A DNA stretch of 37,577 nucleotides from Tepidimonas sp. GTDB lineage: Bacteria > Pseudomonadota > Gammaproteobacteria > Burkholderiales > Burkholderiaceae_C. Below, piece by piece: positions 18,801-27,541 of this stretch. Location of the stretch: NCBI RefSeq assembly GCF_029335975.1, contig NZ_JARJMT020000071.1, positions 1-37,577 of the forward strand, written 5' to 3'. The translations under genes were made by a program, and so were the position numbers. Below the pieces are notes generated by a model. That model saw only the letters and a list, made by a program, of their open reading frames with translations. It searched no databases and was not told where the DNA came from. The stretch's first letter is position 1. The number at the start of each line of letters is the position of its first letter.

Positions 18801-19670
18801 ATGACCCGATCCCCATCCCCGCGACGATCGCCCGCAGGGCCAGCCCCTGAGGTGCTGGCAGAGCTGCATCCCGGACAGTCGATCGCGTTGCTGCAAGAAC
18901 TGCACATCCTCACGCGCGACGGGCGGCTCAACCAGGATTCGCGGCGCAAGCTCAAGCAGGTCAATCACCTGTTACAGTTCATCGAGCCCTTGCTGCAAGC
19001 AGCCCTGGCCGAGCGCGGTGATGTGACCCTGGTGGACCACGGTGCGGGCAAATCGTATCTGGGTTTTTTGCTCTACGACCGGTTTTGCCTGGCGCGCCCG
19101 GTAGGGACCGTCTGGGGGGTGGAGGCGCGGCCCGAGTTGGTCGAACGCGCAGCTGTCTTGGCCCAGCGACTGGGCTTTGCGCGCATGCACTTTGTGGCCG
19201 CCACGGTCCGTGAGGCGATGGCCGCGCTGCCCGCTCAGGTGGACGTGGTGACGGCGCTGCACGCCTGCGACACAGCCACCGACGATGCCATCGAGTTTGC
19301 CCTGCAGCGCCAGGCGCGTGCCATCGTCTTGGTGCCGTGCTGCCAGGCGGAAGTCGCCGCAGCCTTGCGGCGCAACAAGGCGCTGCAGTTGGCGCGCACG
19401 CCGCTGGCCGAGTTGTGGCGTCATCCGCTGCACACGCGCGAGTTCGGCAGCCAGGTCACCAATGTGCTGCGCTGCTTGCGGCTCGAGGCAAGCGGCTACG
19501 AGGTGACGGTGACCGAGCTGGTGGGCTGGGAGCACTCCATGAAAAACGAGCTCATCATCGCGCGCCGCACCGGTCGGCGCAAGCACAGCGCAGCCGTTCG
19601 CCTGACCCACATGCTCGATGACCTGGGGCTGGCGGAACTCAGAGGCCGCTTTGCCGTCCCATCCGTATAA
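18801..19670 (+). CDS. SAM-dependent methyltransferase-like protein (METTL25/Methyltransf_32 type)
   Basis: About 289 residues. A helical N-terminal part (LLQELHILTRDGRLNQDSRRKLKQVNHL) precedes a Rossmann core: VTLVDHGAGKSYLGFLLYDRF stands for SAM motif I, VWGVEARPELVERA for motif II, and VVTALHACDTATDDAI carries the ALHACD motif seen in this family. VLVPCCQAEV follows. The HACD and PCC elements are typical of Methyltransf_32. The target molecule is unknown. ATG 18801 was chosen over an upstream start at 18759 because the latter runs through the intergenic spacer. The antiporter gene starts 28 nt downstream and the genes are probably cotranscribed. Confidence 0.8.
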   Translation: MTRSPSPRRSPAGPAPEVLAELHPGQSIALLQELHILTRDGRLNQDSRRKLKQVNHLLQFIEPLLQAALAERGDVTLVDHGAGKSYLGFLLYDRFCLARPVGTVWGVEARPELVERAAVLAQRLGFARMHFVAATVREAMAALPAQVDVVTALHACDTATDDAIEFALQRQARAIVLVPCCQAEVAAALRRNKALQLARTPLAELWRHPLHTREFGSQVTNVLRCLRLEASGYEVTVTELVGWEHSMKNELIIARRTGRRKHSAAVRLTHMLDDLGLAELRGRFAVPSV

Positions 19671-19698
19671 CGACAGACGACGAGGCGGGGTAAGCGCG

Positions 19699-20889
19699 GT
19701 GCAGTTGTTGGTGACATGGCCGGCCCTGCTGTGGTTGGCGTGGTGGTTGGGCGAGCGTGCGCAGCCTCGGGGCTGGCCGCGGGTCAGCGTTTATGTGGCG
19801 GTGGGCTTGCTGGCCAGCTTCGCGGCCCCTGCCCCCACGCTGGTGGACGGCTCGGTGCTGGCGCTGCTGGCACAGTTGGCGCTGGCGCTCGTGCTGTTCG
19901 AGCTCGGACATCGCATCCGGCTGCGTTGGCTACGCGCCAACCCGTGGGTGGCTGCGGCAGCGCTGCTGCAGGGGCTGGCGTTGTTCGTGCTCCTGGGCTG
20001 GGCTGGCGGGTGGTTGGGCTTGGCGCCGGATGTGCGCTGGCTGTTGGCGGCGGTGGCGGTGGCCGCTTCGCCGGCCGGTTTGTTGCGCGTCGTCAACGAT
20101 TTGCGCGCCGGCGGACAAGTGACCGAGCGTGCATTGCACCAGGCAGCGCTGTTGTCGGTGCTGGCGGTCCTGTTGGTCAAGGCAGTCAGCACCCACTGGT
20201 TCGTTCGCAGCGCCGACGACTGGCTGGCGGCGTTGCTGGCCGGCGGCTATGCGCTGGTGGCCTCGGTGGGCCTGGGCATGGCGCTGGCGGTGGTGTTGGG
20301 ATGGCTGGTGCGCGGCCCATTTGCGGCGCCGCAGGTGCCCACCGTCGGCTACGCGCTGGCATTGGTTTGGCTGACGGTGGTGGCCGATACGCTGAAATTA
20401 TCGCCGCTGCTGGCGGCGCTGAGCTTCGGTGTCATGCTGCGCGAGCGGCAAACGTTGGCCGCCGCAGTGCAGCGCAACTTTGGCACGCTGGGTTGGCTGC
20501 TCGGGGTGTTCCTGTTCGTCTACGTCGGCTCGCGCACAGTGTGGCCGGCGCTGGCCGAGCCGGGCGTGTGGGCGATGGCGGCGCTGGTGCTGGCAGCGCG
20601 GCTGCTGGTGTCAGTCGCCGTCAATGTGGCGCTGGCGTGGCCTGCCGGCATCGGCGCACGAAAGGGTGTGCTCACCGGCGTGGTGCTGCTGCCGATGTCG
20701 GCGCTGACGCTGCTGTTGCTGGAGCGCAGCGCGGCGCTGGGCGTGGAGCCGGCCGCAACGGTGTTGCACCAGCTGGCCGCAGCCCTGTTGTGGGCCGAGC
20801 TGCTCGGCCCGCTGCTGGCTGCGTGGGCGCTGCGCGCGGCGCGCGAGGCGGCGGTCGCCGCGCCGCCGCGGCCAGAGGATCAGGGGTGA
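19699..20889 (+). CDS. CPA2-type cation:proton antiporter, membrane domain only
   Basis: About 396 residues, strongly hydrophobic throughout, with roughly 11 or 12 predicted membrane segments rich in Leu, Ala, Val and Trp. The layout is that of KefB/KefC/CPA2 Na+(K+)/H+ antiporter domains. The C-terminal RCK/TrkA-N nucleotide-binding domain of Kef systems is absent: the protein ends soon after the last segment with a short basic and acidic tail. GTG 19699 was chosen because GAGGCGGGG lies upstream and the hydrophobic N-terminus begins there; the longer reading starts inside the methyltransferase gene. It lies between a methyltransferase and a YbdK-type ligase, which may connect ion exchange with thiol metabolism (inference). 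Confidence 0.75.
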
Positions 20890-20893
20890 TGCG

Positions 20894-22024
20894 ATGCCAC
20901 TGGAGTCATTTATGCAGTCTGACGCGCTCACGATGGGCGTGGAGTTGGAACTGCAAATCGTCCATCCCTACGACCTGGACCTGACGCCGGGGGCAGACGA
21001 CCTGCTTGCGCTGCTCAAGCGCGCACCGTTTCCGGGCAGCGTCACGCCCGAGATGACGCAGAGCATGATCGAGATTGCCACCGGTGTGCATACGCGCCAC
21101 GACGAATTGCTAGCGCAGCTGCGTGCAATCCGGGATACGCTGCTGGCGGCGGCCGAGCGGCTCAACATCGAGCTGGCTGGCGGCGGCACACATCCCTTTC
21201 AGCGCTGGTTCGAGCAGCGCATCTTCGACAAGCCGCGCTTTCAGCAGCTCTCCGGCCTGTATGGCTATCTGGCCAAGCAGTTCACGGTCTTTGGCCAGCA
21301 TGTGCACATTGGTTGCCGCTCGGCGGACGAGGCGCTGTTCCTGCTGCACGCGCTCAACCGCTATGTGCCGCACTTCATCGCGCTGTCGGCTGCCTCGCCA
21401 TTCTTCCAGGGGGTGGATACGCTGTTCGACTCGGCGCGGCTGAACTCGGTGTTTGCATTTCCCCTCAGCGGTCGCGCGCCGTTCGTCTTGCACTGGGACG
21501 ACTTCGAGCAGGGCTACTTCCGCAAGATGGAGTCCACCGGTGTCGTGAAGTCGATGAAGGACTTCTACTGGGACATCCGCCCCAAGCCCGAGTACGGCAC
21601 GATCGAGCTGCGCGTTTGCGATACGCCGCTGACGGTGGAGCGCGCTGCGGCGTTGGCGTGCTACCTGCAGGCGCTGTGCCGCCATCTACTGGAGGGCGGC
21701 GAGCCGCCACCGCAGGAGGACGACTACCTGGTCTACACCTACAACCGCTTCCAGGCGTGTCGCTTTGGGCTGGAGGGCACGATGGTGCATCCGCGCACGC
21801 GCGAGCCGCTGTCGATCCGGGAGGACATCCTGGCCACGCTGCGCCGACTGGAGCCGCACGCACAGGCACTGGACAGCTCAGCAGCGCTGGCGGAGCTGGA
21901 GGCGGTGGCTGGCGCAGCCGGCAACCACGCGCGCCAGTTGCGCGCGGCGCATGCGCGTACCGGCAGCATCCAGGCGGTGGTGCGCGCTGCGGTCGACGCG
22001 CTGCGCGATGGCATGCTAAGCTGA
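20894..22024 (+). CDS. ybdK: YbdK-family carboxylate-amine ligase (glutamate-cysteine ligase type 2)
   Basis: A 376-residue GCS2-family protein. [13 protein letters not shown] opens the catalytic fold, with [31 protein letters not shown] and [16 protein letters not shown] as the metal- and nucleotide-binding elements. YbdK enzymes show weak glutamate-cysteine ligase activity, and the true acceptor of many is unknown. The start ATG 20894 is 4 nt after the antiporter stop, so translation is probably coupled. Later possible starts (20912) exist. A hairpin after the stop probably ends the transcript. Confidence 0.9.
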
Positions 22025-22098: not shown

Positions 22099-23253
22099 AT
22101 GCCTGGCTTGCTGCCCCACATCGACCCGGATGGTCTGCTCGAATTTTCGGTCGTCTACACCGACCGCGCGCTCAACCACATGTCCCAGCGCTTCCAGCGC
22201 GTCATGACCGACATCGGCGGCCTTCTGAAGGAGGTGTACGGCGCGCATGCGGTGGCACTGGTGCCGGGCAGCGGTACCTTCGGCATGGAGGCGGTGGCGC
22301 GCCAGTTTGCCACCGACCGGCGTGTGCTGGTGATCCGCAATGGCTGGTTCAGCTACCGCTGGACCCAGATCTTCGACATGGGCCGCATCCCGGCCGAGGC
22401 GCATGTCCTCAAGGCGCGGCGCGTGGCCGAGGCGCCGCAGGCACCGTGGGTGCCGGCACCGTTGGACGAGGTGGTGCGCACGATCCACACAGGGCGTCCG
22501 GCGGTGGTGTTTGCGCCGCACGTGGAGACCGCCGCCGGCATGATGCTGCCCGATGACTACCTGCGCACGGTGGCTGAGGCCGCGCACACGGTGGGCGGGC
22601 TTTTCGTGCTGGACTGCATCGCCTCGGGTGCCATGTGGGTGGATATGCGCGCCACCGGCGTGGATGTGCTGATCTCGGCGCCGCAGAAGGGCTGGAGCGG
22701 CTCGCCGGCTTGTGCGATGGTCATGCTGTCGGAGCGTGCGCACCAGGTCCTCGACAGCACCACCAGCACGAGCTTTGCCTGCGACCTGAAAAAGTGGCTT
22801 CAAGTCATGCAGACCTATGAGCAGGGCGGCCATGTCTATCACACCACCATGCCGACCGATGCGCTGGCGCGGCTGCGCGATGTGATGCAGGAGACGCGCG
22901 AGCACGGTTTTGCGGCGATGAAGGCCGCCCAGGTCGAACTTGGCCGGCGTGTGCGCGATTTGTTCGAAGCCCGTGGACTGTGCAGCGTGGCGGCGCCGGG
23001 CTTCCAAGCCCCTGGCGTGGTGGTCAGCTACACCGACGATCCGGAGCTCGCCAGCGGCCGCAAGTTCGCCGCCGTCGGGCTGCAGACCGCCGCCGGCGTG
23101 CCGCTGATGTGCGACGAGCCGGCGGACTTTCGCACCTTCCGGGTCGGCCTGTTCGGGCTGGAAAAGCTGCTGCACATCGAGCGCACCGTCGGCCATCTGC
23201 GGCAGGCGCTGGATGCACTCGGCCTGCGCGAGCGGGCCGCCGTCGCCGCCTGA
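22099..23253 (+). CDS. Class V aminotransferase, PLP-dependent
   Basis: A 384-residue fold-type I enzyme. The PLP-binding lysine is Lys197 in ISAPQKGWSGSP. The PLP ring-nitrogen Asp is Asp172 in FVLDCIASG, and the phosphate-binding part is GSGTFGMEAV (about residues 57-66). This layout fits the alanine-glyoxylate, serine-pyruvate or 2-aminoethylphosphonate group; the substrate cannot be assigned. CCAGGAGA lies 8 nt or so before ATG 22099, a good ribosome site. It is preceded by a terminator-like hairpin and ends convergent with the exporter genes, so it is probably a single-gene transcript. Confidence 0.9.
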   Translation: MPGLLPHIDPDGLLEFSVVYTDRALNHMSQRFQRVMTDIGGLLKEVYGAHAVALVPGSGTFGMEAVARQFATDRRVLVIRNGWFSYRWTQIFDMGRIPAEAHVLKARRVAEAPQAPWVPAPLDEVVRTIHTGRPAVVFAPHVETAAGMMLPDDYLRTVAEAAHTVGGLFVLDCIASGAMWVDMRATGVDVLISAPQKGWSGSPACAMVMLSERAHQVLDSTTSTSFACDLKKWLQVMQTYEQGGHVYHTTMPTDALARLRDVMQETREHGFAAMKAAQVELGRRVRDLFEARGLCSVAAPGFQAPGVVVSYTDDPELASGRKFAAVGLQTAAGVPLMCDEPADFRTFRVGLFGLEKLLHIERTVGHLRQALDALGLRERAAVAA

Positions 23254-26011: not shown

Positions 26012-27541
26012 TCACTGGAATGCCACCTCGGCAAAGCTGCGCAGCTTGCGGCTGTGCAGTTGGTCCACGCCAGCGGCGCGCAGCCGCTCGATGGCGCGCA
26101 GACCGATGCGCAGATGCTGATCGACGCGCTCGCGGTAGAAGCGGTCAGCCATGCCGGGCAGTTTGATGGCCCCATGGAGTGGTTTGTCGCTGACGCACAG
26201 GAGGGTGCCGTACGGTACCCGGAAGCGAAAACCGTTGGCCGCGATGGTGGCTGATTCCATGTCCAGCGCCACGGCCCGCGATTGCGAGAAGCGCCGCTGC
26301 GGCAGGTTGTCTGGCAACAGCTCCCAGTTGCGGTTGTCGGTGCTGGCCACGGTGCCGGTGCGCAGCACGCCCTTGAGCGCTGCCCCGTCCAGTCCCGTGA
26401 CATCGGCCACTGCGGCCTCCAGCGCCTGCTGGATTTCGGCCAGCGCGGGGATGGGTACCCATAGCGGCAGTTCTTCGTCCAGCACATGGTCCTCGCGCAC
26501 ATAGGCGTGGGCCAACACATAGTCCCCCAGTTGCTGGCTGGTGCGCAGCCCGGCGCAGTGCCCCAACATCAGCCAGGCATGCGGGCGCAGCACGGCGATG
26601 TGGTCGGTGGCGGTCTTGGCGTTGCTCGGGCCCACGCCGATGTTGACCAGTGTGATGCCGCTTCGGTCGGCGCGCACCAGGTGGTAGGCCGGCATCTGGG
26701 GCAGGCGCGCGGGTGGGCCACCCTCGGGGCCCGCCAGCGCCGCGCGCTGTGTTGCCGACAAGCCCGAGCGCCAGGTGACCACGTTGCCCGGCTCCACGAA
26801 TGCGGCATATTCGCTGTCCGGGCGCTGCATTTCCGCCAGGCCCAGACGCACGAATTCATCGACATAAAAGCCGTAGTTGGTAAACAGAACGAAGTTCTGG
26901 AACCATGCGGGTGATGTGCCGCTGTAGTGGCGCAGCCGCTGCAGCGACTAGTCGATGCGCGCGCCGGTGAACAGCGCCAGCGGTTGAGGGCCACCCGGCG
27001 GCGGAGTGTGCGTGCCGTTGGCGATGCCGTCGTCCATCGCCGTCAGGTCAGGCAGATCGAACACCTCCCCCAGGCGGGCACGGTGCACGGCGTCGAGCTC
27101 GCCCTCGAAATGAGCATCCTCCCCGAGCGCGAAGTGCACGGGGATGGGCTCGTTGCCCAGGCCGATTTCCAGCGGCGTGCCGTGGTTTTCCAGCAACAGG
27201 CGAAACTGCTCGCGCCAGTAGTGCGCAAACAGGTCGGGTCGGGTCAGCGTGGTCTCGTAACGTCCCGGACCGGCGACGAAGCCGAAGCTCAGCCGCGTGC
27301 CGATCCCAGGGCGCATGGGGGTCATGGCCCGTTGCGTGCGCAGTCGCACGAAGGGGTAGGTGGCCCGCACCCGGGTCACCGGGGTATCCAGCGCCAGGGG
27401 GGTTTGCACATAACGGGTCAAAGCGTCGCGCAGAAAGCCCACTGCAGCATCGTAGAGCCGACGCACCTGGGCCACGGCAGCGTCAGGGTCGGTAAAGGCT
27501 TGTGGGGCAACGAAGGCGGGGGTCTCGGGGCGACGGTCCAT
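26012..27541 (-). pseudogene. amn: AMP nucleosidase interrupted by an in-frame amber codon
   Basis: The whole 509-codon Amn can be read on one strand and in one frame apart from a single TAG at 26948-26950 (codon 198). The N-terminal part (from MDRRPETPAFVAPQ) has the regulatory-type domain, and the C-terminal part has the purine phosphorylase-like catalytic domain (INIGVGPSNAKT-like NIGVGPSN, LMLGHCAGLR, ALDMESATIAANGFRFRVPYGTLLC). The TAG lies in ARID-stop-SLQRLRHYSGT, where relatives have Tyr (DYSLxRLxHYTGT). Otherwise the gene looks fully intact, with no frameshift. Amn splits AMP to adenine and ribose 5-phosphate. It may be a very recent pseudogene, a suppressed amber, or a base error. 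The downstream part has no convincing own start. Confidence 0.85.

Follow-up and report, generated by a model that had tools for sequence, protein, structure and literature searches.

A carrier of predicted antiporter fold, apparently without its ion-binding aspartate, paired with the YbdK ligase in Tepidimonas and its relatives

What does an antiporter-like gene do beside a gene that resembles a glutamate-cysteine ligase? We asked this of one contig of a draft genome assembly of Tepidimonas sp. (GCF_029335975.1, contig NZ_JARJMT020000071.1; the whole stretch of 37,577 nt is called the window here), in which a methyltransferase gene, an antiporter-like carrier gene and a gene for a ligase of the YbdK family follow one another. 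A preliminary description of this run read it as a possible three-gene unit for ion exchange and thiol response, with a Kef-type antiporter. Its coordinates and families were confirmed, as were the gaps of 28 nt between methyltransferase and carrier (19671–19698) and 4 nt between carrier and YbdK (20890–20893). What we found is a smaller unit, in which the carrier and YbdK very likely form a functional pair. The stronger finding is that, as judged from alignments, the ion site of the ‘antiporter’ is lost wherever it adjoins YbdK.

We searched sixty genomes, that of the window and fifty-nine relatives, and found matches to YbdK in thirty, to the antiporter homologue in thirty-four and to the methyltransferase in forty-four. 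In 29 of the 30 genomes with YbdK (all but G021) the gene immediately before YbdK, on the same strand, is that of the carrier, and the presence of the carrier tracks that of YbdK when one genome per genus is counted (P = 4e-8). One genome (G027) has two carrier–YbdK pairs, and in another (G034) a single YbdK follows two carriers; G001, a draft genome of the window's genus, matched none of the three genes. The same order recurs in 78 of 80 named loci, the top-scoring 80 among 583 candidates found with an alignment of carrier-linked YbdK sequences only. In the other two (L088 and L104) the contig starts at or just before YbdK. Measured to the start of the match, the gap between carrier and YbdK has a median of 2 nt and is at most 20 nt in 75 of the 78. 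Thus the carrier–YbdK part of the proposed trio stood, while the methyltransferase part, discussed below, did not. The pair occurs twice in succession on the contig of L092; in L074 (1034–2063) the carrier gene upstream of YbdK is split over different frames, through either a true disruption or a mistake in the draft sequence. YbdK itself is present as a single copy in the window's assembly, according to our YbdK search.

For wider searches we used NCBI's own YbdK model at its curated cut-off. Seven of 274 genomes sampled from the class had a YbdK over the cut-off, five of them with the carrier, and a sample of 299 genomes from the phylum (five already counted in the class sample) contained fifteen such places, twelve with the carrier. 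G173 and G174, two members of the class that are more distant, have the pair. Lower-scoring ligase loci, for which up to 1.5 kb was fetched on each side, had no neighboring carrier in either the class search (0/23) or the phylum search (0/16).

One explanation for this adjacency is shared descent alone, a single lineage having passed on the gene order without the two genes working together. The titles of the eighty loci are nearly all betaproteobacterial (L088 is titled Gammaproteobacteria, and L075, L086 and L118 give a phylum only), which fits such inheritance. However, the flanks change on both sides of the pair, the methyltransferase has been left behind, one genome carries the pair twice, and the pair reaches the more distant members of the class. 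Together with the correlated presence of carrier and YbdK across genera, this makes mere inheritance barely credible.

The carrier belongs to a general exchanger family, with PF00999 as its sole Pfam match (63.9 bits against a cut-off of 26.2, ending at residue 366 of 396). The Pfam scan gave no match to an RCK/TrkA domain in these 396 residues, as expected from the preliminary description, which had the antiporter lacking its cytoplasmic regulatory domain; no NCBIfam model matched the carrier. The Kef label given there has to be withdrawn. In alignments the QD motif of Kef is absent from the carrier and Leu152-Ser153 stands in its place, and Kef membership is ruled out by the missing RCK domain and the missing motif together. 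On these matches the name ‘Kef’ is too specific. The Kef proteins (KefB and KefC, of the CPA2 family) share the PF00999 transmembrane fold, and KefC chains are among the PDB matches of the carrier model described below, but the window's carrier differs from them in both features and in being paired with YbdK. Two further PF00999 proteins in the window's genome are long and Kef-like and have retained QD.

In characterised exchangers of the superfamily the ion site holds an Asp, as ND, DD or QD, which PMC11150392 describes as strictly conserved and essential. In the same paper D156 of KefC corresponds to D157 of NapA, again called strictly conserved, and the D156N variant had no K+ density. The residue at this position in the window's carrier is Ser153. 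We counted the column over 191 of 192 matches of at least 105 bits, collapsing to 144 distinct carrier sequences; omitted were L074 (a broken piece in which the column is missing) and, both below 105 bits, the fragment L240 and the Kef protein L051. Asp occurs in none of the 113 distinct carriers linked to YbdK (Cys in 70, Ser in 25, Thr in 11, Ala in three, Asn in three and Gly in one), compared with 24 of the 31 carriers not linked to YbdK, which read DD; the other seven have Asn and read NN. The Fisher value for this table (2e-21) ignores shared ancestry and is descriptive only. The variants beside YbdK are N-C, N-S, N-T and two cases of D-C (L207 and L210) that keep only the first Asp. The Asn of the ND motif is kept by 89 of the 113 linked carriers; the window's carrier has lost this residue as well.

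Several alignments agree on the Asp column and fix its assignment. The QD of one Kef-like protein from the window's own genome aligns on it, and in a profile alignment the N-C of the family falls on the N-D of NHE1 and PaNhaP, the NHE1 match being weak (E = 0.12). The nearest carriers without YbdK come from 26 places scoring 112–200 bits, and in 24/24 of those with loci read DD stands exactly in the column, in open frames of 389 to 516 residues. Another own-genome Kef-like protein, L052, has its QD two columns off in one alignment and off again in a second, and was not used for the column. With the Asp missing in linked carriers, the ion exchange first ascribed to this antiporter is doubtful, and the carrier is probably not a canonical cation/proton exchanger.

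In a structural model the carrier keeps its fold despite the loss of the Asp. An AlphaFold2 model of the carrier, built on a 59-row alignment, has a mean pLDDT of 92.8 and a pTM of 0.92. It aligns with NHA2 (7p1i; Z 36.3, rmsd 3.2, 374 residues aligned) and NapA (5bz2; Z 32.9, rmsd 4.0, 372 aligned), with Z of 31.7–36.3 over 369–382 residues across NHA2, NapA and PaNhaP chains; SOS1, SLC9C1 and NhaP are further structural matches. Foldseek places NapA, SOS1 and NHA2 chains above KefC, which is among its matches; KefC is not in the 50 VIA-align rows listed, an absence that has no bearing on kinship. The model contains broken-helix segments at residues 121–124 and 330–334, and all helices are of high confidence. 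By this prediction the carrier has kept the full NhaA/CPA fold but not the ion-binding carboxylate. NapA, NHA2 and NhaP (CPA1/CPA2) are therefore alike to it in the full fold, and to most of the linked carriers in the Asn of the motif, but their ion-binding Asp is replaced by Ser in the window's carrier and mostly by Cys in its relatives.

Such a protein could be transport-dead or channel-like, a ligand-binding sensor or scaffold through which YbdK is controlled at the membrane. The lost Asp and the tight coupling to one enzyme gene are consistent with this, as is the faster divergence of the carrier, whose identity to the window outside the genus is 30–39 per cent, compared with 45–74 per cent for the partner YbdK. 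However, all helices and both broken-helix segments are predicted confidently, as would be expected if movement still matters, and we regard a sensor or scaffold as quite improbable. The opposite possibility is that the carrier is still a cation/proton exchanger working through other residues, and that a gamma-glutamyl compound made by YbdK gates it from the cytoplasmic side, replacing the glutathione-sensing domain of Kef. The fully kept (predicted) fold points this way, and the closest DD relatives are probably true exchangers. Conserved charged residues are also left, including Glu68, Arg144, Arg301 and Glu383; Arg301 is found in 107 of 107 aligned carrier rows, and Pro27, Gly139, Ser235 and Pro332 are conserved at 1.00 (rounded). 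Against this, the Asp that is essential in characterised members is gone from 113/113 linked carriers, a gating ligand gives no reason for the loss of the ion site, and the glutathione enzyme GshA is encoded by a separate gene. A gated exchanger thus seems unlikely.

We also looked at how often the Asp was lost. A quickly built tree, with one long Kef branch as its root, places the DD rows inside the rows without Asp. When the 51 D-less rows were constrained to a single group the likelihood rose (+4.25, p-AU 0.618), which permits one loss but does not prove it. Among the carriers that read NN, those of L191–L195 form a sister group in which YbdK is not next door, and their crude gene lists, from which three neighboring proteins were scanned, revealed no common neighbor. 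Of the seven unlinked Asn copies, two (L106 and L197, the latter from G034) share their locus with a carrier–YbdK pair. There the NN-type copy and the YbdK-linked copy stand side by side, perhaps as a two-subunit or two-cargo arrangement. A plasmid search returned 71 records, headed by Caballeronia and all below 60 per cent identity.

The ligase matches the NCBIfam YbdK equivalog NF010040 at 574.8 bits (cut-off 425) and the PDB entries 1r8g and 1tt4 with E-values of 3e-97 and 1e-98. It belongs over its full length to the same curated family as YbdK of E. coli and Salmonella, but the enterobacterial-looking loci in our searches (L170, L172 and L173) have YbdK without an adjacent carrier. The E. 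coli enzyme reportedly has ligase activity, to go by the title of Lehmann 2004 as cited in PMC2588565. To our knowledge the physiological role of YbdK is unclear. The GshA family TIGR02048 scores only 35.9 bits on the window's ligase (cut-off 249), and the other glutamate–cysteine ligase models tried are also below cut-off. A dedicated GshA (TIGR02049) lies elsewhere in the window's genome, on contig C134 (601 bits against a cut-off of 293.9), and one is found over the cut-off in 54 of the 60 genomes. This argues against a glutathione role for the window's ligase, and YbdK is unlikely to be the glutathione enzyme of this genome. Two YbdK-bearing genomes (G045 and G058) have no GshA, so a glutathione-like role is possible there. 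For the glutathione and thiol response in the preliminary description we found no positive evidence. A thiol link is left possible by the Cys at the ion site of 70 of the 113 linked carriers; the window has Ser. On contig C134, GshA and a Kef-like exchanger (49041–50261 and 58311–59417) lie about 8 kb apart, a more natural glutathione–Kef neighborhood than the window.

A third partner, a peptidase of family C26, was first met in gene lists as a gene of the class I glutamine amidotransferase (GATase) fold after YbdK in L079 (PF07722, 189 bits). The four C26 partners scanned score 179.8 to 189 bits for PF07722, with a cut-off of 20.5. C26 is present in 40 of the 80 loci: directly downstream on the same strand in fifteen, 27–51 nt from YbdK between aligned ends, and on the opposite strand within 6 kb in twenty-five. 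Three of the forty loci without it had less than 900 nt of room downstream. A strong C26 match (at least 190 bits) was found in 27 of the 60 genomes, 26 of which carry YbdK. Taking one genome per genus, C26 accompanies YbdK in 19 of 21 genera with YbdK and occurs in one of 29 without (19/2/1/28, P = 1.3e-10), a question asked after the adjacency had been noticed and with four of the sixty genomes (G027, G034, G045 and G046) already known to show it. YbdK without strong C26 was seen in G004 (73 per cent complete), G005, G024 and G058, and C26 without YbdK in G012. In G005, a member of the window's genus, a C26 gene near 10425–10845 of contig C56 is in pieces with an internal stop. In the window's genome C26 lies on another contig (C95:5713–6483) among unrelated genes, and matches one of the scanned partners at 69 per cent identity (397 bits). 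Strong C26 was absent from all five genomes with YbdK but without the carrier in a further set chosen for YbdK (0/5).

What might this peptidase do? Cys128, His231 and Glu233 are each present in more than 97 per cent of sixty aligned rows, and presumably form a Cys-His-Glu catalytic triad. Among NCBIfam models, gamma-glutamyl hydrolases take the first two places, both below cut-off. The PuuD equivalog NF008471 scores 71.9 to 95.9 bits on three C26 proteins, including the copy from the window's genome, against a cut-off of 266. In gene lists for sixteen stretches around C26 (the pair itself is present in two of them, L255 and L256) inspection by eye, with no family search run, revealed no neighbor that would indicate a substrate; some neighboring genes are common to close relatives. 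An alternative role is that of an ammonia-donating glutamine amidotransferase, with YbdK as an amide synthetase and the carrier moving the amidated product. C26 does share the class I GATase fold (PF00117, 57.8 bits) and stands beside YbdK in many loci, but PF07722 is a far better match at 189 bits, and hydrolases head its NCBIfam matches even if below cut-off. Moreover, half of the further genomes with the pair do without a strong C26. We therefore consider the amidotransferase very unlikely.

The explanation we put forward instead is a gamma-glutamylation cycle with its own carrier, served by the YbdK pair and often joined by the C26 hydrolase, which we hold to be plausible if short of probable. 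YbdK would join the gamma-carboxylate of glutamate to an amine on a small molecule, and the C26 peptidase, whose gene lies apart from the pair in the window's genome, would take the glutamate off again. The NhaA-fold carrier would move the free amine or the gamma-glutamyl conjugate across the inner membrane; having lost the cation-binding Asp, it would no longer exchange Na+ or K+ with protons by the familiar mechanism. We infer the chemistry of ligase and hydrolase from their families, and likewise the cargo, the direction and the energy source of transport. A cargo of gamma-glutamyl type is a tentative choice, and the earlier suggestion that the ligase product is the cargo is still favored as the best idea. 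In its fullest form the proposal is that a branch of the antiporters gave up ion exchange and became a dedicated carrier of gamma-glutamyl metabolites, locked to YbdK and often to C26, as an undescribed shuttle. This we offer as a possibility that invites some doubt.

Several observations weigh against the proposal. The 80-locus sample leans toward linked YbdK because the query alignment was all carrier-linked and the best eighty were kept, and the P values are corrected for ancestry only by taking one genome per genus. YbdK occurs without the carrier in G021, G100 and G241 and in L170, L172 and L173, the last three being one family whose enterobacterial look comes from neighboring genes (the name is inferred). 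Seven carriers that have lost the Asp, all NN, do not adjoin YbdK, and an acidic residue we did not recognise could still bind a cation. Strong C26 was found in only five of ten further genomes with the pair (5/8 from Burkholderiales and 0/2 of those more distant), making it a frequent, not a constant, partner.

Parts of this arrangement are familiar from other systems. The Puu pathway (PuuP-PuuA-PuuD), like related gamma-glutamylation pathways, combines a ligase, a C26 hydrolase and a carrier, to which GCS2, C26 and NhaA-fold proteins would be the counterparts here. It differs in that our ligase is of the GCS2 type, our carrier has the NhaA fold, and our C26 is not PuuD (NF008471 at most 95.9 bits, cut-off 266). 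A GCS2-sized ligase beside a thiol peptidase of the GATase fold has been described in proteobacteria by Iyer et al. 2008 (PMC2588565). That system resembles ours in having a ligase of YbdK's superfamily beside a GATase-fold peptidase; it differs in using another ligase family, and neither ‘antiporter’ nor ‘transporter’ appears in the main text. We found no description of the carrier–YbdK pair in a literature search of titles and abstract openings, with subscription journals thinly covered, which is weak evidence of novelty.

The remaining genes are summarised in Table 1. The methyltransferase, whose sequence contains the motif HACD, is found in 21 of the 80 loci, close upstream in eighteen and about 2 to 3.5 kb from YbdK in three; eight of the 59 loci without it were uninformative, because the carrier was missing or had less than 900 nt in front of it. 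Ten of the 60 genomes, each a member of the window's genus, have it next to the pair; elsewhere it is far off or on another contig. Its presence does not follow that of YbdK (P = 0.78, one genome per genus, at least 300 bits). These three results rule out the trio as a unit, and the methyltransferase is probably a co-oriented, lineage-specific neighbor outside the conserved unit. The aminotransferase-like gene downstream, found in 9 of the 80 loci, also looks like a lineage-specific neighbor. Other flanking genes varied in twelve loci with gene lists, which are crude (L061 is plainly mis-called), and all-against-all clustering of open reading frames from the eighty loci was blurred by antisense frames.

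An alternative start, the in-frame ATG at 19618, would make the carrier gene run into that of the methyltransferase; in locus L025 a stop codon just upstream makes a start much before the equivalent of 19699 impossible. Between 18600 and 22250 a scan for sigma-70-like promoters gave no match, where 0.2 would be expected; it gave four terminator-like matches, where 2.2 would be expected, and all of these are inside genes. Farther along the window, an AMP nucleosidase gene on the minus strand (26012–27541) has one in-frame stop about two fifths in, either a true nonsense change or a draft-assembly error.

Table 1. Genes and motif position of the run in the window.
Feature	Position	Strand	Basis and details
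Class I SAM-dependent methyltransferase (Methyltransf_32)	18801..19670	+	PF13679 154.1 bits, 289 aa
NhaA/CPA-fold carrier, core partner 1	19699..20889	+	PF00999 63.9 bits, 396 aa, GTG start
Codons of Leu152-Ser153, in place of the ND/DD/QD ion-binding motif	20152..20157	+	alignments
YbdK family carboxylate-amine ligase, core partner 2	20894..22024	+	NF010040 574.8 bits, 376 aa
Class V aminotransferase-like gene, 74 nt 3' of the YbdK gene	22099..23253	+	PF00266 26.3 bits

If the proposal is true, the labels antiporter and glutamate-cysteine ligase would both mislead, the one suggesting salt exchange and the other glutathione. A superfamily famed for ion exchange would have an offshoot that carries something else, and the repeated substitutions at its ion site (N-C, N-S, N-T and D-C, compared with DD) would form a natural series on the loss of exchanger coupling. 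YbdK would in turn gain a function, together with two partners through which its true substrate may be traced.

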